In this document: positions 45,327-61,414 of the stretch, piece after piece
How the letters are laid out: each line of letters opens with the position of its first letter
Position numbering within the stretch: the first letter of the stretch is position 1
Notes under the pieces: model-generated
What the model was told of the DNA's origin: nothing
What the model saw: the letters and a program-made list of their open reading frames with translations, nothing else
Database searches by the model: none
NCBI GenBank assembly: GCA_938048455.1
Contig: CALIUY010000003.1
Span: 91,206 to 155,205 of the forward strand
Direction: 5' to 3'
Source of the DNA: an uncultured Desulfobacterales bacterium
GTDB taxonomy: Bacteria > Desulfobacterota > Desulfobacteria > Desulfobacterales > SpSt-501
DNA: 64,000 nucleotides
Position numbers and translations under genes: made by a program

Positions 45327-46490
45327 TCAAGCCGCTTCGATGCCTGCGGCCCGGATGCCGCGCACGTAATAGCCCGGATCGTGGAGAAAGCTCAGGAAGA
45401 TGACCAGGAAGGCGATGCACCCCTGGATCATGAGGGGCTTGTTCGCGTAAAGCAGCTCGAGCTGCTGCCGGAGCCGGGCTCCGTCGGCGGGGGCGAAGTA
45501 GATCGTGAAGAGTCCGTCCAGCATGCACCGGCCATCAGGCCGGGTCACGAAATCGCTGCGGCCGCTGTGGCAGTATTCCATCGCTTCCAGAACCAGCGCC
45601 CGTTGCCGGCCCAGATCCTTCAGATGGTAGCCGAGCAGGTGCATGAGGGAGCGCTGGGCCTCGCGCAGGCTCGCCTGGGCGAGGGCGTCGAAGAGCACGC
45701 TGCGCCCTGCGCTTTCCGGAAGTGCCCCCGCCTGACGGATCAGGGAGAGCAGGACCGCGTTCTTGAAGAGCTGGTGGAGCCGGCGGGCGCCGTTCATCAC
45801 CGTCGCCGGGGTGTGCTCCGCCTGCGGCCGGTAGCCGGGATAGTGGGGGACGAAGAGCAGCTCGAAGAGATGCTGGAAGCAGTCGATGCCGGCGAGCGGA
45901 TCCTCGAGGTCGATGCGCATGTCGAGGGTGTTGTCCAGACGGTCGGCCAGCTTCACCTCGACCAGATCGGGGCACCCCGCGGAGGCGCTCTCGAGCAGCC
46001 GGCCGATGTAGGCCGTATAGGGCTCCTCGGCGATCCGTGTCAGCCCCTGCAGGCGGCGGACGAGCCCCGCCTCCTCGCCGGGGGGCAGCCGGTCGAGCAT
46101 CTCGTAGAGCATCTCCTCGAGCGCCCGCCATTCGCGGGGCTCGAAATCGACCGGCTTCACGTCCTCCTGGATGTCGTGGAAGAGCACGCCGAGCAGGCTT
46201 TCGAGGCGGGGGGGTTCCTGTGCGCGGGCCAGCAGGGCGCAGGCCCGCAGGGGGTGCAGGACGGCCAGAGGCCCGAGCCGTCGGCGCTTGTGGCTGTAAG
46301 CCCGGTAAAGATATTCGAGCGCCTCCAGGAGCAGCGCTCGTCCGGCGCGATCGACCTCCCTCGAAGCATCGAGCCGTTTGCCCGCAAGGATGTAGGCGAC
46401 GACATTGACCCGGTTGAGCGAGGCGGCGCTCAGGTTGTAATGGAGCACCGCGGAGAGCTGGAAGAACTCGTTCAGGTCGAAGAGCGCCAT
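45327..46490 (-). CDS. HD-domain protein related to the RelA/SpoT hydrolase domain
   Basis: A 387-aa protein whose N-terminal 210 residues resemble the ppGpp hydrolase domain: LHPLRACALLARAQE (first His), LGVLFHDIQEDV (HD pair) and VEVKLADRLDNT, equivalent to the KLADRLHN motif. The synthetase, TGS and ACT domains of SpoT are absent. The C-terminal half ends in a hydrophobic segment (GCIAFLVIFLSFL) that could be a membrane anchor. This could be a membrane-bound small alarmone hydrolase-like protein or a diverged HD hydrolase; activity is not shown. ATG at 46490 has GAGGGGG upstream. It stands alone on the minus strand. Confidence 0.75.
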   Translation of the reverse strand: MALFDLNEFFQLSAVLHYNLSAASLNRVNVVAYILAGKRLDASREVDRAGRALLLEALEYLYRAYSHKRRRLGPLAVLHPLRACALLARAQEPPRLESLLGVLFHDIQEDVKPVDFEPREWRALEEMLYEMLDRLPPGEEAGLVRRLQGLTRIAEEPYTAYIGRLLESASAGCPDLVEVKLADRLDNTLDMRIDLEDPLAGIDCFQHLFELLFVPHYPGYRPQAEHTPATVMNGARRLHQLFKNAVLLSLIRQAGALPESAGRSVLFDALAQASLREAQRSLMHLLGYHLKDLGRQRALVLEAMEYCHSGRSDFVTRPDGRCMLDGLFTIYFAPADGARLRQQLELLYANKPLMIQGCIAFLVIFLSFLHDPGYYVRGIRAAGIEAA

Positions 46491-46936: not shown

Positions 46937-48385
46937 ATGATCGAACCCCGGAACACCCTGCGGATCTTCGCGGAAATCAGCCGCATTCCCCGTTGCTCGG
47001 GAAACGAGGAGGAGGCGGCGCGCTGGTTCGAGCGCTGGGCCGCGGCGCACGGCTTTCCCTGCCGCCGGGACGCCGCGGGGAACCGCCTGATCCGCGTTCC
47101 CCCGTCGGCCGGCTGTGAGGGTGCGCCGGCGGTCATCCTCCAGGCGCACCTCGACATGGTGTGCGAAAAAACCCCGGAATCGCCTCACGACTTCCGCCGC
47201 GACCCGCTCTGTCTCGTACGCGAGGGCGACTGGCTTCGCGCCGAGGGCACGACCCTCGGCGCCGACAACGGTGCGGGTCTGGCGCTCGCCGCCGCCCTCG
47301 TCGAGCGCACGGATGTCCCTCGACCGCCGCTCGAGCTGCTTCTGACGGTAGACGAGGAGACCGGCTTGACCGGAGCCAAGCGCCTGGAGCCCGGCTTCGT
47401 CGCCGGCCGGGTCCTGATCAACCTCGACTCCGAGACCGAGGGCGTCTTCACCATCGGCTGCGCGGGGGGCGTCGAGAGCCGGATCGAACTCGCGCTCGAG
47501 CGCGGGAAACCGCCGACGGGCCTCGTTCCGCGGCGGCTCGTCGTCGGGGGGCTTCACGGGGGGCACTCCGGAATCGACATCCACCGCCCTCGGGCGAACG
47601 CGATCCGCATCCTCGCCCGGCTGCTCGGCGAGATCGGCGATTTCCCGGACACGGCGGTTTTCGCCGTTTCCGGCGGAAGCCGCCGCAACGCCATCGCGCG
47701 GGACGCCTGGGCCGACATCGCCTGCCGCCCCGAGCGGGAAGGGGAGACCGCGGAGCGCATCGCACAGGCGGCCGAACGGCTGCGCGCCCTCTATCCCGGG
47801 GAAGCGGGCCTGTTCTGCGAGCTGCGCGAAAGCCCCCCTCCGGCGGCAGCCGGCGGAGCTTTTTCCCCCCGCTGTCTGCGACGGGTGCTCGATCTGCTGC
47901 TCGCCCTGCCCCACGGGCCGCTTCTGCCGGATGAGCGCTTCGAGGGTCTCGTCCACAGCTCGGCGAACCTGGCCGTCGTGGAGACCGGCGCGGAATCGCT
48001 CACGGTCGTCACCAGCGAGCGCAGCCTCTCGCGCGAGGGGCTCGAGGAGACCGTGGCGTGCATCCGCGCCGTCGCCGAGCTCGCCCAGGCCCGGGTGCGT
48101 CTCGAATCCGAGTACCCGCCTTGGACGCCCGATCCCGACTCTCCGCTGCTCGCCCTGTGCCGACGCGTCTATCGCCGCCGTTTCGGCGCCGAGCCGCAGG
48201 TGCGCGCGATCCACGCCGGCCTCGAGTGCGCCCTGATCGGCGCCCTTTATCCGGGGATGGACATGATCTCCGTCGGGCCGACCACGGAAAACGCGCACTC
48301 GCCGCACGAGCGGCTCCATGTCCCGTCGCTCGCCCGGCTGGAGGAATTTCTCGCCGCGCTCCTCGCGGAGCTCGCCCGGGAGTAG
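46937..48385 (+). CDS. pepD: Aminoacyl-histidine dipeptidase (peptidase M20C)
   Basis: Zinc dipeptidase that cleaves Xaa-His and other dipeptides. The 482-aa protein has ISRIPRCSGNEEEAA, the metal motif AHLDMVCEK, GTTLGADNGAG, the catalytic glutamates in VDEETGLTGAK, the lid-domain GLHGGHSG and the C-terminal IHAGLECA. All motifs of the PepD/carnosinase-like group are present. GAGGAGG lies before ATG 46937. It converges tail-to-tail with the LonB-type protease gene with no intervening base. Confidence 0.95.
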   Translation: MIEPRNTLRIFAEISRIPRCSGNEEEAARWFERWAAAHGFPCRRDAAGNRLIRVPPSAGCEGAPAVILQAHLDMVCEKTPESPHDFRRDPLCLVREGDWLRAEGTTLGADNGAGLALAAALVERTDVPRPPLELLLTVDEETGLTGAKRLEPGFVAGRVLINLDSETEGVFTIGCAGGVESRIELALERGKPPTGLVPRRLVVGGLHGGHSGIDIHRPRANAIRILARLLGEIGDFPDTAVFAVSGGSRRNAIARDAWADIACRPEREGETAERIAQAAERLRALYPGEAGLFCELRESPPPAAAGGAFSPRCLRRVLDLLLALPHGPLLPDERFEGLVHSSANLAVVETGAESLTVVTSERSLSREGLEETVACIRAVAELAQARVRLESEYPPWTPDPDSPLLALCRRVYRRRFGAEPQVRAIHAGLECALIGALYPGMDMISVGPTTENAHSPHERLHVPSLARLEEFLAALLAELARE

Positions 48386-50644
48386 TCAGCCGGCGGCGGG
48401 CCGGCGCGCAAGCGAGGCGAGATCCCGTCGGATGCGCTCGGCCATGCGCGCCTCGAGCGCCTCACGGTCGATCCCCATGAGGATTTCGTAAGCGTTGTAC
48501 TTCGTCTTGCAGAAGAAGATGTCGAAGGGCAGGCCGCGCTCCGCCCCGCGATAGATGCGGATGCCCGGCACATCGCCCCGGCGGATGAACTCGGCTTCGG
48601 CGTTCACGAGCAGCGGCTCGATGTCGTGCTTGTTCAACCAGGGGACACAGGCCCCCTCCATGCCGAGGTCGGGGTCGAGGATCGAGCGGATCTTTTCGGC
48701 CACCCCGCCGACCGCCAGGATGATGTCGCCGGTGAGCGATCCCGTCACCCCGTAGCGCGGATTGACGGGCTGGCGAATGAAGTCCGAGACGAGCGCGATG
48801 TCCATCGCCACCGAGGCGGAATCCCCTTCCACGCCGTCGTGGGCCTGGATGTACTCGACGTGCATCTCGTAGCCGACCCCGGCGGCCCCCAAGGCGTCGA
48901 GCACCCGCTTGATCGAGGCGCGCACGTTCTGGGCGGCCGCCTTGGCGATCTCCCCCATGCGGCCCGGCGCGGTCATCTTGTCGGCCCCGCCGGCGGTCAC
49001 CTGGCCGTGGATCGGAAGGGGCTGTCCGAACATCTGCCCGCTCGCCGCGCTGTGGATGACCGCCAGCCCCACGACATAGCCGATCGAGTCGCTGAGGGCG
49101 GCGATGTATTTCTTCAGGTACTTGCGGTGCTCGAGCAGCTCGCGGGCGAGACCCACCTCCAGGCTCAAATGCTCCTCCAGCGCCCGCCGGACGTGCGGCG
49201 GCTCGACGCGGGGGGCGTTTTCGAAGAGGGCGGCGAACTCCGCGGCGAGGACAATGCCGTTGATCGGCCGCAGGATCGCGCTGAGTTTGCCGTCGGAGGC
49301 GCGGCAACGCAGCTCGCGGACGATCTCCATCACCGCGGCGCGGGAGAGCGGCCGGGCCTCAAGGCGGAATTCCTCCGGAAGCCGGCGGCCGAAAATGTGC
49401 TCGGAGCGCCGCCGCACCCCGGCGGGCCCCTCGGCGGCGAGCACCTCTCCCCAGCAGCGCCGGAACTCCTCGCCCAGCCGCCGGACCTCCTGGGCCACGT
49501 ACTGGGCGACCGCCCGGATCGTCTGTGGGGTTTCGGGGACGGCGCTTTCCATGTGGACGATTTCGCCCTTGTCCTCGATGCGCGACAGAAACGCTCCGTC
49601 CCCTTCCTGCTGCAGGGCGGCCAGCGTGTCGTAGTTGCAGCAGGCGATCAGGATGTTCTCGGCCCGCAGCGGATTCTCCGAACGGTCGGCGGCGCCGCTG
49701 CCCGACTGGCGGCCGCCTTCGAGGATGTACTTGCGGTTCTGCATCACCTCGAGCAGCTCGGCCATGTAGCCCGTGCGCACGAGGGTCTTCAGCTCATCGA
49801 TGTAGAGGATGGGGGAAGTCGCGTGCGCGCCGAGAAAGGCCCGCTTGTGGCAGGGGGTCTGCAGGTTCCCGGACTGGTAGGGGTCGTGGCGAAAGCCGCC
49901 CTTCATGTTGCGCGCGCTCGGCTCGGCGACCCGCGCCATCAGCGCGCGTTCCTGGCGCGGGTCGTAGAGGACCTCGGGAATCTGGTCGGCCAGCTGCTTG
50001 AGATCGACGCGCCCCGCCCCGCCGTTGTCGCGCTGGATCCGCTCCTGGACCCGGATCTGGACCTCCTGCAGGTAGAGAAAGACCGCGCCGATGCCGGCCA
50101 GGCCGGCCGCGATCCAGGCCGCGGGGAAGAAAAACCCCAGCCCCGCGGCCGCAAGCCCTCCGACCAGCATCCCGCGGCGCACGCGGCGCACCGCCCGGCC
50201 CGTGTCCTCGAGGCTGAACTCCTCCACGCTCCCCTGAGCGGTCTCGACCGCACGGCGGATTTCGGCGAGCGCGCGGTCGAGGGTCTCGGGGGTTTCGTAA
50301 GCGATCCGGACGTGGTTGCGGTCTTTGCCGGGGAAGGCGACGATCGACTCCCGCGGCCGGAGATAATCGCCGAGCGACCGGTCGAGCACCTCCTCGAACA
50401 TCTCCGCCAAAAGCGACTTTCCCGTGCCGGGACGGCCGACCAGGAGCAAGTGGCCGCGGTTCTGGGCTACCTTACGGATGGCGGCCTTCGCCCGCTCCTG
50501 GAAGATCACGCGCTCGATCGGGTCCGCGGGGATCGGCACCTCCGAGGTGTCCTCGAAGAAACCGAGACGCCCCTCAAGGGCCCGCGGGTAATCGAGCAAC
50601 TCGCGGATCCAGGCGTAGTCGCTGGGGCGGTAGTCAGTCGACAT
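48386..50644 (-). CDS. Membrane-anchored LonB-type ATP-dependent protease
   Basis: A 752-aa Lon-family protease of the archaeal LonB arrangement: an AAA+ module with Walker A GRPGTGKS (about 69-76), two hydrophobic helices inserted at about 160-190 (GMLVGGLAAAGLGFFFP and the next), Walker B ILYIDELK, and a C-terminal Ser-Lys protease domain. The catalytic residues are Ser609 in GDSASVAM and Lys651 in GGVAEKI, 42 residues apart as in Lon. The N-terminal substrate-binding domain of LonA is missing. The start overlaps the upstream gene by 11 nt. Likely role: quality control of membrane or nearby proteins. Confidence 0.92.
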   Translation of the reverse strand: MSTDYRPSDYAWIRELLDYPRALEGRLGFFEDTSEVPIPADPIERVIFQERAKAAIRKVAQNRGHLLLVGRPGTGKSLLAEMFEEVLDRSLGDYLRPRESIVAFPGKDRNHVRIAYETPETLDRALAEIRRAVETAQGSVEEFSLEDTGRAVRRVRRGMLVGGLAAAGLGFFFPAAWIAAGLAGIGAVFLYLQEVQIRVQERIQRDNGGAGRVDLKQLADQIPEVLYDPRQERALMARVAEPSARNMKGGFRHDPYQSGNLQTPCHKRAFLGAHATSPILYIDELKTLVRTGYMAELLEVMQNRKYILEGGRQSGSGAADRSENPLRAENILIACCNYDTLAALQQEGDGAFLSRIEDKGEIVHMESAVPETPQTIRAVAQYVAQEVRRLGEEFRRCWGEVLAAEGPAGVRRRSEHIFGRRLPEEFRLEARPLSRAAVMEIVRELRCRASDGKLSAILRPINGIVLAAEFAALFENAPRVEPPHVRRALEEHLSLEVGLARELLEHRKYLKKYIAALSDSIGYVVGLAVIHSAASGQMFGQPLPIHGQVTAGGADKMTAPGRMGEIAKAAAQNVRASIKRVLDALGAAGVGYEMHVEYIQAHDGVEGDSASVAMDIALVSDFIRQPVNPRYGVTGSLTGDIILAVGGVAEKIRSILDPDLGMEGACVPWLNKHDIEPLLVNAEAEFIRRGDVPGIRIYRGAERGLPFDIFFCKTKYNAYEILMGIDREALEARMAERIRRDLASLARRPAAG

Positions 50645-51794
50645 GGCCGGTCCCCGTCGTCTCTTCCAGCACGTAGAAGCGTCCCGCGTCGGTCGGGACC
50701 GCCCGGCGGCGGATCTCGGCGTACACGGCAGGAAGCGTCTTGCGCAGCGGCTCGAGCGCCCGCAGATCGTGCAGCACGCAGCGGATGAACAGGAGCTCCT
50801 CCCCGCCGTTTTCGGAGGGTCGAAGCCCGCTCAGGGTCACCGTCGTGCGCATCGTCCGAAGCGCCGGGCGGATCAGGCTGCCGAAACGGGAGCCCCCCGC
50901 CTCGGGAGGGAGAAGCTCGCGGAAAATCGGCGGGATCCCGCCTTCGGCCTCCCCCGCATCGCCGGCCGGCTCGAAGGTGAGCCGGAGCGGCCGCAGCGCG
51001 CCCTGACGGAAGGAAAGAAGGGCGCGCTGCATTTCGCGGCACTGCCGCAGGCTCGTCTCGAAGAGCATGAGGTAGCGCAGCTCCTCGGGCGCCACGAGGC
51101 GGAACTCCAACCTTCCCGCGGCCGTGAGCACACAGGCCGACGGCCGTCCCGCGCGGCTGTAAGTGAGCAACGGAACCCACCCCTCCGGCCCGAAGGCTTC
51201 GGGCGGGCAGGCCCGCAGATCGAAGGTGTCCGGCACGCTGTGGGCGCGGTGGACGGTGACGCGGACCTCGCGGCCGACGTTCGCGGCAAGGTAGCGGAGC
51301 CTTTCCTCGGTCGTCCCCAAAAGCTTCAGGTAGGTGTAGCCGTGCCCGGGGTCTTCGCAGACGCCGACGACATGGGCGATGCGCCGCGGGTCGAGCCGCG
51401 CGAGCCGGCGCTGGAAGGGATCGTAATGCCGCAGCGCGTCGGCAAGTCGATCGAAATGGGCCCCGAGGGCGGGATCGCGAAACCTCGGAAGCCGCAGGCG
51501 CAGGCCGGAAAGGAGAAGCTCTCCGGCGTTGGGCCGCCGCCCGAGCCGCCGGAAGACCCGCAGGCCCCGGCGGGAGGGGGAGGTCGCGTGGATTTCCGCA
51601 CCGATCAGGCGTTTTCGAATCTCGATCGGTCCGGGGTGCAACAGGTAGCGGCCGAGGGCGGAGACGCGATAGGCCTTGCCCGGGACCGGGTCGGCCTCGG
51701 GGTCGAAGGCTTGCACGTCGAACTCGATCCGGCGCGGTTCGGTGATGACCCACGGCCCGGCGGCCGGAGCGGCTGGATCCCGGAGCTCTTCCAT
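50634..51794 (-). CDS. Uncharacterised protein in the GspE-HDOD-LonB operon
   Basis: A 386-aa protein that I cannot place. It has no signal peptide, no membrane helix, few cysteines and many arginines. Segments such as RRLGRRPNAGELLLSGLRLRLP and the central HVVGVCEDPGHGYTYLKLL suggest a folded cytoplasmic protein. ATG at 51794 shares a base with the HDOD stop (TGATG) and its end overlaps the LonB start by 11 nt, so it is translated as part of this operon. The upstream extension to 51950 lies inside the HDOD gene and is rejected. It may be a signalling or protease-adaptor protein, which is a guess from context. Confidence 0.75.
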   Translation of the reverse strand: MEELRDPAAPAAGPWVITEPRRIEFDVQAFDPEADPVPGKAYRVSALGRYLLHPGPIEIRKRLIGAEIHATSPSRRGLRVFRRLGRRPNAGELLLSGLRLRLPRFRDPALGAHFDRLADALRHYDPFQRRLARLDPRRIAHVVGVCEDPGHGYTYLKLLGTTEERLRYLAANVGREVRVTVHRAHSVPDTFDLRACPPEAFGPEGWVPLLTYSRAGRPSACVLTAAGRLEFRLVAPEELRYLMLFETSLRQCREMQRALLSFRQGALRPLRLTFEPAGDAGEAEGGIPPIFRELLPPEAGGSRFGSLIRPALRTMRTTVTLSGLRPSENGGEELLFIRCVLHDLRALEPLRKTLPAVYAEIRRRAVPTDAGRFYVLEETTGTGHVD

Positions 51795-52648
51795 CACTTC
51801 TTGGATCCCGATCCCAGAAGGGGCGAGTCTTCGAGTTCGATCTCCAGACGGGCGAGATCGACCTCCCCGATGCGCAGCGCCCGCGCCTCGGGACTCGCCG
51901 CGACGGACTCCGGCGGTGGGGCGGAAAGGCCGAATCCCGCCTTGTTGCACACCCGGTCGGCGAGTCGCACGATCCGCAACAGCGCCGGATCGCCCTCCCC
52001 CGCAGGCCGGTGGTGATCCCGGACGATCTCCGCGTAGGTTTCGGGCAGCTCCCAGTGCTTCATCAAACGATACCCCTCCGCGGCGTGCAGCCGGTCCATG
52101 GCCTCCTCCAGAATCGCCGTGGAAACGACGGCCGCCTGAGGGACCCGGCGGGGCAGATCCTCGATCACCGTCACCACGAACAGTTTGCCCACATCGTGCA
52201 GCAGGCCGGCGAAAAACGCCTCATGCACCAGAGCCGGCATTCCGCCGTTCCGCGCCAGCCAGTGCGCGGCGACGGCCGTCGCCAGCGCATGCCGCCAGAG
52301 TCGGCGCAAAACCCCGTGCAGCACGGGATCCCGGGAGCGGAACTGGCTCTCGTGGGTGACGGTCATCACGATGTTGGCCACCTCGTTCACGCCGAGGCGC
52401 ACGATCGCGTTGCGCACCGTCGTCACCTGGTTCAGGCCCTTGTAAAAAGCCGAATTCGATAAGCGCAGCACCTCCGCCGTGAGGGCTTGGTCGCTGCCGA
52501 CGAGCTGCTCGATGCGCCGCGGATCGGGCTCTTCCCGGGAAATCTCCTGTTGGACACGGGCCGCGACGGCGTGGAAGACCGGCAGGCGGGCTTCCCCCGA
52601 GACGATGCACTGGGAGATCCGTTCGACGAGGGAGGGGGGTTGAGGCAT
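51794..52648 (-). CDS. HDOD-domain signalling protein
   Basis: A 284-aa HDOD protein, a class often found in c-di-GMP, motility and stress pathways with loss of HD hydrolase activity. Family features: LPVFHAVAARVQQEI, the IRRIEQLVGSDQALTAEVLRLSNSAFY region (split here in the conserved order), NAIVRLGVNEVANIVM and an intact-looking LLHDVGKLF. ATG at 52648 starts 2 nt after the GspE-type gene stop. No output domain is attached. It is probably a partner of the ATPase encoded upstream. Confidence 0.9.
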   Translation of the reverse strand: MPQPPSLVERISQCIVSGEARLPVFHAVAARVQQEISREEPDPRRIEQLVGSDQALTAEVLRLSNSAFYKGLNQVTTVRNAIVRLGVNEVANIVMTVTHESQFRSRDPVLHGVLRRLWRHALATAVAAHWLARNGGMPALVHEAFFAGLLHDVGKLFVVTVIEDLPRRVPQAAVVSTAILEEAMDRLHAAEGYRLMKHWELPETYAEIVRDHHRPAGEGDPALLRIVRLADRVCNKAGFGLSAPPPESVAASPEARALRIGEVDLARLEIELEDSPLLGSGSKK

Positions 52649-52650
52649 GC

Positions 52651-54564
52651 TCAGACCTCCAGCAGGCGGCTCAGTTCCGACAGCGGCCGCGGCCGGCACA
52701 GCCGCGGCAGGCAGCGCAGGACTTCCTCGAGCGTCGTGATGCCGCGGGCCGCTTTGAGCAGGCCGTCCTCGAAAAGGGTGACCAGACCGGCGGTTTCGAG
52801 CGCCCTCCGACGCAGCTCCGGCGCTCCGCGGCGCTCGATCACCGCGCCGCGGATCTCTTCGTTCAGGACCAACAGTTCAAACACGCCCACCCGCCCCTGA
52901 TAGCCGCTGTAGCGGCAACGGGGGCAGCCGCGTCCGCGCCGGAAGGCGGCTCCGGCGAGCGCCTCGGGGCCGAGCCCCAGCCGGCGCAGCTCGACGGCCG
53001 CGGGACGCTCGGAGACCGCGCACTCCGGGCAGACCCGCCGCAGCAGCCGCTGGGCGAGAAGGGCGCTCACCGTCGAGGCGACGAGATAGGCTTCGAGGTT
53101 CAGGTGCAGCAGCCGGATCAGACCCCCGATCGTGTCCTCGGCATGGAAGGTGGTGAGCACCTGGTGCCCGGTGAGGGCGGCCTGCACCGCGGTTTCGGCG
53201 GAAAAGGCATCGCGCACTTCGCCGAGGAAGAGGACGTCGGGGTCCTGGCGCACGATATGGCGCAGGGTTTCCTCGTAGGTGAGCTGGATGCGCGGGTTGA
53301 TCGAGCACTGGCAGATCCCGTCGATCAGCGCCTCGACGGGCTCCTCGGCCGTGAGGATGCTGACCTGGGGATCGTTCAGGTGCCGGATGCAGCTGTAGAC
53401 CGTCGTCGTCTTGCCGGAGCCGGTCGGCCCGGTCACCAGAATCACTCCGCTCGGCAGGTGGAGGGCCTCCTCGCGGAAGCGCTCGAGCTGCCGCGGGGCG
53501 AGCCCGAGATCCTCGAGCGGAATCAGGGTTCCGCGGCGGTTGAGCAGGCGCAGGACGATCTTTTCCCCGTGGACCGTCACGTAGAACGAGGCCCGCAGAT
53601 CGAGGGCCCTGCCGCGGTGTTCGAAGGTGAACCTCCCCCCCTGATGGCGGCGCTTCTCCGTGATGTCGACCTCGCACATCACCTTGAGCCGGTTGGTGAC
53701 CGCCCCCATCAGCGAGGCGGGGAAATCCTCGACGGGCACGAGCACCCCGTCCTCGCGAAAGCGCACGCGCACGTGTTCGGCGAAGGGTTCGATGTGCACG
53801 TCGCTTGCCCCGCGGTCGACGGCGGAGCCGAGGATCCGGTTCACGAGCGCGACGATCCCCTGCTCGTCGGAGGCCGAGACCCTCTCGCGTTGGCGGGACG
53901 AGCGCGCCCGTCGGACGGCGCGCTCCACGGCCCCGCGCCGGGCGACGGCCACGCTCAGCTGCGGGCCGAAGAGTTCGCGGGCGTTGGCGAGATCGCCCGC
54001 ATCCAGGGGATCCACAAAAGCGACCCGCGGGATCCCGTTCTCCAGCCGCAAGGGGACGAAACCCGGAGCGGCGGCCAGGTCCGCAGGCATCCGCTGGAAG
54101 AGCCGGGAATCGATCTCGGCGAAATCGGGTTCGACGAAAGGGTAGCCCAACCGCCGGGAGAGGACCTCGATCAAGGTGCGTTCCTCGATCAGGCGACGCT
54201 CGACCAGGATGTCCGCCAGCCGGCGCTTCGGACGCGACTCGCGTTGGACGGCTCGGGCGGTCTCGAGGTCTTCCCGCGGCAGGAGCCCCAGCTCGACGAG
54301 CAGCTCCCCCACATCGGGGGCCGCGCCCGGGGTGCGGATCAGCTCCCGGATCTCCTGCTCGTCGACGAAGCGCAGCTCCTGGAGAATTTCCATCAGCGCC
54401 CGCGGGGTCTCGAGTTTGGCCTGCACGCGACGGGCGTAGGAGACCTGCTCGCGGGACACCCGCCCGCTTTCGATCAGCCGCTCCACGATGTCGAAGGGCG
54501 CCGGGTCGCCGGAGGCCGGCGGTTCTTCCTCCCGCCGGCTCCGCCGGGCCGTGGTTTCGTTCAC
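52651..54564 (-). CDS. GspE/PilB-type secretion or pilus ATPase
   Basis: A 637-aa hexameric ATPase of the type II secretion/type IV pilus family. In order: two N-terminal MshEN-like helical modules (about 25-160), the N2 domain, Walker A GPTGSGKTTT (Lys385), the Asp box and Walker B (DPDVLFLGEVRD), the His box, and a zinc knuckle CPEC...CPRC. GTG at 54564 has AGGGGGG upstream. No pilin, secretin or inner-membrane partner is encoded nearby; instead HDOD, an unknown protein and LonB follow. It may serve a machine encoded elsewhere. Confidence 0.92.
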   Translation of the reverse strand: MNETTARRSRREEEPPASGDPAPFDIVERLIESGRVSREQVSYARRVQAKLETPRALMEILQELRFVDEQEIRELIRTPGAAPDVGELLVELGLLPREDLETARAVQRESRPKRRLADILVERRLIEERTLIEVLSRRLGYPFVEPDFAEIDSRLFQRMPADLAAAPGFVPLRLENGIPRVAFVDPLDAGDLANARELFGPQLSVAVARRGAVERAVRRARSSRQRERVSASDEQGIVALVNRILGSAVDRGASDVHIEPFAEHVRVRFREDGVLVPVEDFPASLMGAVTNRLKVMCEVDITEKRRHQGGRFTFEHRGRALDLRASFYVTVHGEKIVLRLLNRRGTLIPLEDLGLAPRQLERFREEALHLPSGVILVTGPTGSGKTTTVYSCIRHLNDPQVSILTAEEPVEALIDGICQCSINPRIQLTYEETLRHIVRQDPDVLFLGEVRDAFSAETAVQAALTGHQVLTTFHAEDTIGGLIRLLHLNLEAYLVASTVSALLAQRLLRRVCPECAVSERPAAVELRRLGLGPEALAGAAFRRGRGCPRCRYSGYQGRVGVFELLVLNEEIRGAVIERRGAPELRRRALETAGLVTLFEDGLLKAARGITTLEEVLRCLPRLCRPRPLSELSRLLEV

Positions 54565-58947: not shown

Positions 58948-59290
58948 TCAATCCACCCCCTGGATATCGAACCGCTGAAATTGACATGGATTACCCGAAA
59001 CCATCATGCCGGAAAAGCCTGCTGTCAACCCGCCTCTTGTCGCCCGCGGCCGGAGCGCAATCCCTCATCCCCCCTTTCCGCTCCACGCCGAGGGGATAAT
59101 TGTTAGAACTTTCTTTTTACAGAGATTTCGCTTGCCTGGAGTCAAGGGGCCTGATAGGAATACCACTTCATAAAATAAAAACATTTTTTCCAGGTTCAAG
59201 CGAAGAAACCTGGGGTGGGCGACGGTCGTTTCACCTGCGGCCTTGAAGAAACCGGCACACGCTTTGGGCTTCCCGGGGGGTGAAGATCGT
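58948..59290. other. AT-rich intergenic region between htpX and the PilZ gene
   Basis: 343 nt without a supportable gene. Candidate elements: a minus-strand TTGACA (59028-59023) with a weak -10 for htpX; a plus-strand TTGCCT-17-TAGGAA (59132-59160) for the PilZ gene; and a 7-bp stem (59190-59196 with 59207-59213) preceded by a T-run. The stretch 59084-59210 is clearly richer in A and T than the rest of the window. Confidence 0.6.
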
Positions 59291-61414
59291 ATGACGCGGG
59301 GCGGTTTCGGTTTCGAGGAAGACCAAGAGAAGGATCCCGCACCCCGGTCCCTTGATCTTGAGGTCACGCCGGAGGAGAAGCAACTGCTGCTCATGCCGCC
59401 CCGGCCCGCGGCCGAAACGGAGCCGGGCGGGACGCGCTCGCGGATCGGTCGGGAACTGCTCGTCAATCGCATCCACCTGGTCCACTTCCGGGATCAGCTC
59501 CTGGAGATCGAACTCACCCACCGGCGCTTCGGAAGCACCGAGCGCCTCGCGGCCCGTCCCCGGCCCGTGGACGGCCGGATCCTCGAGTGCCTGTGGTCGG
59601 AACCCGAGCAAGCGGCCGCCCTGCTTTCTTCCCACGAACCTACGGCACTGCTCGTCCCCCGCGGTCAGCGCCGCATCCGCGCCGAAGCCCGCGTGCTCGC
59701 CGTCGACGCCGGGAAAATCCGTTTCGAGCTCCCCGAGACGGCCGTCGAAGTCAACGAGCGCCGCATCGACCGCTTTCCCGGCCGGGAGGTCGCGGTCCGG
59801 CTCCTCCAGAATTCCGGCTCTTTCCCCGGGCGGCTGCTCGATTTCAACGCCTTCTCCTTCCGCGTGGAGCTCGCGGCGGACGGGCCGCAGAGTTTCGCCT
59901 GGATCGACCCGGAGCAGCCCGTTCACGCGCTCCTCTTCCGGGAGGCGCAGACCTTTTTCGCCGGCGAATGCCGTATCACCCGCACCGAGCAAGGAGCCTC
60001 CTGCCGCAGCTATGTCCTCGAGCCCGTTCACCGCGAAAGCCGGCGCTTTCGGCGCGATGAGGTCCGCAGTCAGCGGCTGATGCTCGTCCCTTCCCCGAAC
60101 CTCGTCTTTTCCCATCCCCTCACCGAGCAGCGCGTCGAGCTCAAGGTCACCGATCTTTCGGGGTCGGGATTCGCCGTGGAGGAAGAAATCGCCCGCGCCG
60201 TCCTGCTCCCCGGCCTGATTCTGCCCGAGGCGAAACTCGATTTTGCGGGCAGCTTCGAGATCCGTCTGAGCGCCCAGGTCGTCTTTCAGCGCGTCCTTGG
60301 CCAGGACGAGGCCCAGGGCTCCGTGCGCTGCGGCCTGGCGCTGATCGACATGCCGCCCGGCGATCACGTGAAATTGATCGCGCTGCTCAACCAGAGCCGG
60401 GACCGCAACGCCTACCTCTGCAAGGAACTCGACCCCGAGGCCCTCTGGGATTTCTTCTTCGAGACGGGCTTCATCTACCCCAAAAAGTACGCCTTGATCG
60501 AGAAGCGCAAGCGGGAGATCCGGGAAACCTGCGTCAAGCTTTACACCCGCAGCCCGGAGATCGCCCGGACCTTCCTCTACCAGAAAGGCGGTGTGATCCT
60601 CGGGCACCTGGCGATGATCCGCTTCTGGCCTTCCACCTGGCTGATCCACCACCACGCCGCACGCAAGTCGGCTCTCTACCGCGCGGGGCTGAACGTGCTC
60701 GACCAGCTCTGCCGTTTCATCCACGACGGGTTGCGCCTGCGCAGCCTGCAAATGGATCATCTCGCCTGCTACTACCGGCCCCAGAACCGCTTCCCGCGGC
60801 GCGTCTTCGGCGGCTTCGCCGAGGAAACGGCCGATCGCCGGGTCTGCTCCGTCGACCCCCTCGCCTACCTCACGCTCGGGGAGACCCCTGCGGAAGAGGA
60901 GCCCCTGCCCGCGGGCTGGGAACTCCTCGAGGCCGGGGAGGCCGATCTGCTCGAAAGTCGCCGCTTCTACGATCACGCCTCCGGGGGCCTGATGGCCGAG
61001 GCGTTCGATCTGGGGACAGAGCGGCGGCAGGACGAGGAACTCTCCGCGCTCTTCGGCCGCCTGGGTCTGCGTCGCCGCCGTCTGCTTTTCGCCCTGCGCC
61101 GTGGGAGCCGGCTGAAAGCGCTGATCGCGGCCCACGTCTCCGACATCGGTCTCAATTTCTCCGAGCTGACCCATTGCCTGACGGTTGTCGTGGTCGATGC
61201 CGAAGGACTCGGGGAGAAAACGTTGAACACGGCGCTTCGGGCCGCGGCAAAACGCGCCGGTCTCGAGGAGATCGTGGCCCTCGTTTTTCCGGAGACGTTC
61301 GCGGCGGCGGCGGGACTGGCCGCCGAAAAGCAATACCATCTCTGGATCGTGCGGACCTTCGACGCCGAGCAGCCCTTCCAGAAATTCCTCAAGCGCTTGA
61401 CGCGCATGCCCTGA
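59291..61414 (+). CDS. Large PilZ-domain protein with C-terminal acyltransferase-like region
   Basis: A 707-aa cytoplasmic protein with no membrane segments. Around residues 248-300 it has the c-di-GMP-binding PilZ signature: an arginine cluster RRFRRDE followed by VTDLSGSGFAV (D-x-S-x-x-G). The N-terminal 240 residues could be a YcgR-like flanking domain. The region from about 400 to the end (for example GFIYPKKYALIEKRKREI, LGHLAMIRFWPSTWLIHHHAA and ending RLTRMP) resembles a tandem GNAT-like acyltransferase, though this is a weak call. ATG at 59291 is preferred over a TTG at 59243. It stands alone with its own promoter region. Likely role: c-di-GMP-responsive effector. Confidence 0.8.
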   Translation: MTRGGFGFEEDQEKDPAPRSLDLEVTPEEKQLLLMPPRPAAETEPGGTRSRIGRELLVNRIHLVHFRDQLLEIELTHRRFGSTERLAARPRPVDGRILECLWSEPEQAAALLSSHEPTALLVPRGQRRIRAEARVLAVDAGKIRFELPETAVEVNERRIDRFPGREVAVRLLQNSGSFPGRLLDFNAFSFRVELAADGPQSFAWIDPEQPVHALLFREAQTFFAGECRITRTEQGASCRSYVLEPVHRESRRFRRDEVRSQRLMLVPSPNLVFSHPLTEQRVELKVTDLSGSGFAVEEEIARAVLLPGLILPEAKLDFAGSFEIRLSAQVVFQRVLGQDEAQGSVRCGLALIDMPPGDHVKLIALLNQSRDRNAYLCKELDPEALWDFFFETGFIYPKKYALIEKRKREIRETCVKLYTRSPEIARTFLYQKGGVILGHLAMIRFWPSTWLIHHHAARKSALYRAGLNVLDQLCRFIHDGLRLRSLQMDHLACYYRPQNRFPRRVFGGFAEETADRRVCSVDPLAYLTLGETPAEEEPLPAGWELLEAGEADLLESRRFYDHASGGLMAEAFDLGTERRQDEELSALFGRLGLRRRRLLFALRRGSRLKALIAAHVSDIGLNFSELTHCLTVVVVDAEGLGEKTLNTALRAAAKRAGLEEIVALVFPETFAAAAGLAAEKQYHLWIVRTFDAEQPFQKFLKRLTRMP

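Follow-up and report, generated by a model that had tools for sequence, protein, structure and literature searches.

Gene content of the locus

The window analyzed here, a stretch of 64,000 nucleotides of DNA from an uncultured Desulfobacterales bacterium, carries four tightly packed genes on its minus strand, encoding a GspE/PilB-type ATPase (GspE*), an HDOD protein, a protein referred to as X and a LonB-like membrane protease (Table 1). GspE* is separated from the HDOD gene by a gap of 2 nt, the stop codon of the HDOD gene and the start codon of X share the sequence TGATG, and the first 11 nt of LonB overlap the 3' end of X. An in-frame upstream GTG is an alternative start for the HDOD gene and would yield a protein of 301 residues. 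Pfam profiles matched T2SSE and MshEN in GspE*, HDOD in the HDOD protein, and Lon_C and AAA in the protease; with the coordinates and overlaps, these matches bear out the packing and the identities assigned to the four genes in the original prediction. A convergent M20-type peptidase gene ends at 48385, abutting the end of the protease gene.

The original prediction had also treated the four genes as a single signaling-controlled assembly or turnover system, to be checked by recurrence of the gene order. No such system recurs. The grouping is beyond chance, as two obligate pairs (X with LonB and GspE* with the HDOD gene) that each recur and mostly lie apart, and not as a four-gene unit, which is contiguous only in the genus of the window (L017-L020).

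Table 1. Features of the locus and of related loci. Plain coordinates refer to the window; the others carry the locus handle.
Feature	Location	Strand	Description
GspE*	52651..54564	minus	GTG start, 637 aa; GspE/PilB-type ATPase, degenerate MshEN-like N-terminal region
HDOD protein	51794..52648	minus	ATG start at 52648, 284 aa; obligate partner gene of GspE*
X	50634..51794	minus	ATG start at 51794, 386 aa; no known family; obligate partner gene of LonB
X/LonB overlap	50634..50644	minus	11 nt; typical of the family
LonB-like membrane protease	48386..50644	minus	ATG start at 50644, 752 aa
HD-like protein	45327-46490		387 aa; no Pfam match
Protein with sub-threshold PilZ match	59243-61414		723 aa
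C-terminal third of X (G059)	L173:1925-2341		upstream of LonB
Zinc-ribbon HDOD near X-LonB	L040:13525-14592, L049:7662-8720, L058:7546-8640, L161:12442-13521		directly adjacent in L040/L157
Other GspE	L049:5419-7662, L059:3580-5829, L063:10983-13229		apparent C-terminal cyclic-nucleotide-binding-like region; right after X-LonB
MotA/ExbB-like and MotB/OmpA-like genes	L058:427-2006 (also L062, L147)		directly upstream of X-LonB

X and LonB form an obligate gene pair

In order to follow the pair across genomes, profiles of X and LonB were used to search 146 genomes of the order, and a further 297 genomes represented the phylum; both samples are drawn, incomplete sets. Full-strength LonB was found in 34 of the 146 order genomes, and the profile search with the 386-residue protein, a check proposed in the original prediction, placed X beside it in all 34. 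In the phylum sample the same 8 genomes carry X and LonB, side by side in each. X without LonB was seen among the order genomes only in G129, where X is cut by the contig end. Across 50 non-redundant loci, X is invariably the gene just upstream of LonB, in the same orientation, and the two overlap in 45, mostly by 8 or 11 nt. The neighborhood of these loci is otherwise unconserved beyond close relatives. Pairwise distances of X and LonB are correlated (r=0.87, a value that co-inheritance alone could produce), with X diverging about twice as much as LonB. What is left of X upstream of LonB in G059 is its C-terminal third, residues 250-386, which may mark the LonB-binding part of the protein or an assembly error. 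No X was found on plasmids. Named relatives belong to the Desulfobacterales and other Deltaproteobacteria, according to a scan of named genomes that used one peptide pattern and so does not prove confinement of X to Desulfobacterota.

Overlapping genes indicate co-expression and not contact, and X and LonB could therefore act in one pathway without touching, the overlap reflecting co-regulation only. We regard this as rather unlikely, as neighborhood conservation is almost nil, so that no pathway is visible, and a two-gene pair in fixed order would be more typical of a complex.

A LonB-like membrane protease

The protease of the window has a Walker A motif at residues 70-77, a hydrophobic insert at about 157-192, Walker B at D283-E284 and a Ser609-Lys651 dyad. 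The Walker and active-site residues and the hydrophobic insert are kept across a 46-sequence LonB alignment; in 44 sequences about 200 residues separate Walker A from Walker B, and this interval contains a hydrophobic stretch (about 160-192) whose Kyte-Doolittle value reaches up to 1.9 in the window protein. The protein therefore has one of the features expected of archaeal-type LonB (S16), a membrane-anchoring insert of more than 100 residues inside the AAA+ region between Walker A and Walker B. In LonA, the catalytic Ser is immediately preceded by Pro, not Asp. Here all 45 sequences measured have Asp at that position; this Asp and the membrane insert are both hallmarks of LonB (PMC9569914). 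The Ser and Lys are separated by 41 residues, again in 45 of 45 sequences measured, whereas LonB proper has exactly 42 residues between them (PMC9569914), and the score against NCBIfam TIGR00764 (LonB) was 244 bits, below the cut-off of 516.6. On the basis of this separation and score we name the protein LonB-like and not LonB proper; it belongs to a divergent subfamily and probably works like LonB.

The best PDB match of the LonB-like protease was a Lon protease, 3k1j, which is TonLonB (PMC9569914). With archaeal LonB (MEROPS S16; Haloferax volcanii, Thermococcus; PMC9263693, PMC9569914, PMC4864567) it shares the hydrophobic insert between Walker A and Walker B, the Asp before Ser and the Ser-Lys dyad, and it differs, apart from the shorter Ser-Lys spacing and the sub-cut-off score, in being bacterial and in having the obligate partner gene X. 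The window genome also has four strong LonA-type Lon_C matches, which makes the LonB-like protease an additional one and suggests a specialized role for it.

Protein X matches no known family

Relatives of X in Pfam, NCBIfam, PHROGs, PADLOC and PDB were sought with the single sequence and with 15- and 47-member alignments, and only scattered weak single-member matches were obtained. The protein had been called novel in the original prediction, and it indeed has no family in these libraries. PDB profile matches to Csy4, at E=0.26, were judged to be chance. The structure of X, modeled from one strain, that of the window, was predicted with confidence (pLDDT 87.7, pTM 0.85). Two PDB searches and one viral-structure search with this model returned nothing at E <= 0.001, the best matches having E values of 0.1-0.3 and low TM scores. 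A new fold is therefore a possibility for the modeled protein, the comparison covering PDB and viral structures. The idea that X is a displaced LonA N-domain found no support: the 50 fold matches listed include no Lon chain. Profile comparison gave no internal repeat, and X has no TM-like or hydrophobic segment and no match to the SPFH domain. Mean column identity is 49% over 47 sequences. The invariant residues (Gly, Pro, Tyr, Leu, Ser and one Cys) appear unlike those of an enzyme, and no recognizable effector domain or enzyme signature was found in X.

These properties bear on whether X could be the main substrate or regulated target of LonB, with the protease setting the level of its co-translated neighbor. 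Obligate 1:1 pairing equally fits a protease and its target, and the roughly twofold faster evolution of X also agrees with this reading. However, X lacks a recognizable effector or enzyme domain, its column identity and confident globular model are unlike a disposable substrate, and the near-universal gene overlap would favor matched production of both proteins. A substrate role is therefore considered unlikely.

Known Lon adaptors need not be encoded beside Lon, so adjacency alone does not identify X as an adaptor. The role proposed for X, that of a dedicated protein altering Lon activity or substrate choice, resembles that of the Lon adaptors and regulators SmiA (PMC9204741), LarA (PMC10665427) and HspQ. 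These act on soluble LonA, whereas X is co-translated with a membrane-type Lon, and no sequence relation of X to library entries was found. The logic of the proposed pair is also that of the FtsH-HflK/C complexes (PMC12048511), in which a membrane AAA+ protease has partners dedicated to it, although the protease family differs and X has neither an SPFH match nor a hydrophobic segment.

GspE* and its HDOD partner

GspE* matched PF00437 (T2SSE) with 359.6 bits (cut-off 24.9) and MshEN with 51 bits, and the HDOD protein matched PF08668 with 163 bits (cut-off 22.9). The ATPase scored below the equivalog cut-offs for both PilB (TIGR02538, 452 vs 675.65) and GspE (TIGR02533, 441 vs 630.25), and the subfamily alignment shows apparently intact Walker A and catalytic motifs. 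The c-di-GMP–binding motif of MshEN consists of two copies of RLGxx(LVI)(LVI)xxG(LVI)(LVI)xxxxLxxxLxxQ (PMC5013675). In GspE*, motif I begins with DVG and motif II has RLA...R...R in place of RLG...G...Q, with parts kept in relatives; alongside this degenerate motif, NCBIfam NF053729 scored 47.8 against a cut-off of 38. GspE* is a distinct subfamily, with members in 18 of the 146 genomes of the order and in 11 of the 297 of the phylum sample. Outside the genus, 26 loci were checked (L126-L141, L162-L171), and each has an HDOD gene of the window type as the next gene downstream; no other broadly recurring neighbors were found.

The original prediction had noted that pilus and secretion genes are missing nearby. 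This holds for contig C3, where no T2SSF/PilC platform gene was matched, but the genome has three elsewhere, on C5, C17 and C63. The genome also encodes several other assembly ATPases away from this locus. GspE* may therefore work with one of these other machines, with the HDOD protein as a possible regulator. GspE* is similar to the PilB/MshE/GspE assembly ATPases (MshEN: PMC5013675) in its T2SSE domain, intact Walker A and MshEN-like N-terminus, and it departs from them in the lack of a platform gene on its contig, the coupling to an HDOD gene, the degenerate c-di-GMP motif and the sub-equivalog scores. Two more GspE-type ATPases with long repeat-like N-terminal regions were seen at L073 and L074 (contigs C2 and C36 of G000), with no T2SSF match on their contigs.

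Linkage between the two pairs

Outside the genus, the two pairs lie a few kb apart in the sister family f8 and at L037, with two opposite-strand genes between them, and are unlinked elsewhere. Two of the seven genus members show no GspE-HDOD genes upstream of X: in G005 an aminotransferase gene is directly upstream, and the G002 contig extends only about 0.6 kb upstream of X. Of the 18 order genomes that have GspE*, 12 also carry X, more than expected at random (p=4e-5; leaving out families f1 and f8 gives 0.016; both values ignore shared ancestry). In the phylum sample the window's genome alone carries both pairs.

One four-gene system, for example one in which signaling governs the turnover of pilus or secretion components by LonB, would agree with the contiguous operon and its coupled ends in the genus, the proximity of the pairs in f8 and L037, and the co-occurrence in the order. 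Nevertheless, we consider such a system quite improbable, given that GspE* is missing from most X-LonB loci, that the two genus members above show none upstream of X, that only the window's genome in the phylum sample combines the pairs, and that the GspE-HDOD genes following X-LonB in L049/L059/L063 are of a different subfamily. A functional link between the two pairs is therefore possible.

HDOD genes and other neighbors of X-LonB

Of the 50 loci, 18 have HDOD genes no more than 8 kb from X-LonB, with 23 genes observed against 1.5-2.3 expected from genome densities; since the loci are related, these amount to roughly seven independent arrangements by our count. Most belong to a zinc-ribbon subfamily and lie downstream on the same strand (L040/L157, L049/L059/L063, L058/L062/L147, L161). 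The ranking of the zinc-ribbon HDODs was not counted as evidence, since its profile had been made from these same neighbors. A weaker form of the predicted signaling link thus stays alive, since several lineages have an HDOD protein encoded near X-LonB, but it would usually run through this other HDOD and not the GspE-coupled HDOD of the window.

In L049/L059/L063, another GspE is followed by a zinc-ribbon HDOD, making a second GspE-HDOD pairing; that these are the window's genes was ruled out by their different subfamilies. The L058, L062 and L147 loci have MotA/ExbB-like and MotB/OmpA-like genes upstream of X-LonB and a histidine kinase and zinc-ribbon HDOD downstream. The HD-like protein of the window is a conserved LonB neighbor in the genus and in L040/L157, and the protein with the PilZ match is a conserved neighbor in the genus and in L026.

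Discussion

We favor, as the probable explanation of the gene patterns, that X and the LonB-like protein make up a dedicated two-part, membrane-anchored, ATP-dependent proteolytic machine, with GspE*-HDOD as a separate entity. The adjacency of X and LonB in every LonB-carrying genome of both samples, their fixed order, frequent overlap and variable other neighbors point to such a machine, as do the conserved Walker and active-site residues and insert, the correlated distances and the extra LonA copies. The pairing in 26 of 26 GspE*-HDOD loci, mostly in genomes or places without X-LonB, argues for a separate module. In the proposed machine, the insert would tether LonB to the inner membrane so that the proteolytic chamber lies in the cytosol; X, a cytosolic protein, would bind to LonB and select substrates, acting as its adaptor or as a gating subunit. 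GspE*-HDOD would be an auxiliary motor of the pilus type, regulated by its own HDOD protein, adjoining X-LonB in the window's genus through local synteny. The link between X and LonB rests on genomic association, and X could instead be a substrate or a pathway neighbor.

More tentatively, X might found a new-fold protein family and be the first case of an obligate, co-translated subunit in a membrane Lon of archaeal type, which would give Desulfobacterota a two-component holoenzyme with a logic like that of FtsH-HflK/C. A dedicated protease-partner pair of this kind seems to be undescribed.

Membrane-anchored B-type Lon has been studied mainly in archaea, and little is known about how it selects its substrates there. 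A partner whose gene is obligately present and overlaps that of the protease would offer a direct handle on this question, in bacteria that have several LonA copies besides. X also adds an uncharacterized protein family with no detectable fold relative among PDB and viral structures, and GspE*-HDOD is a second obligate pair that ties an orphan pilus-type motor to an HDOD signaling protein.
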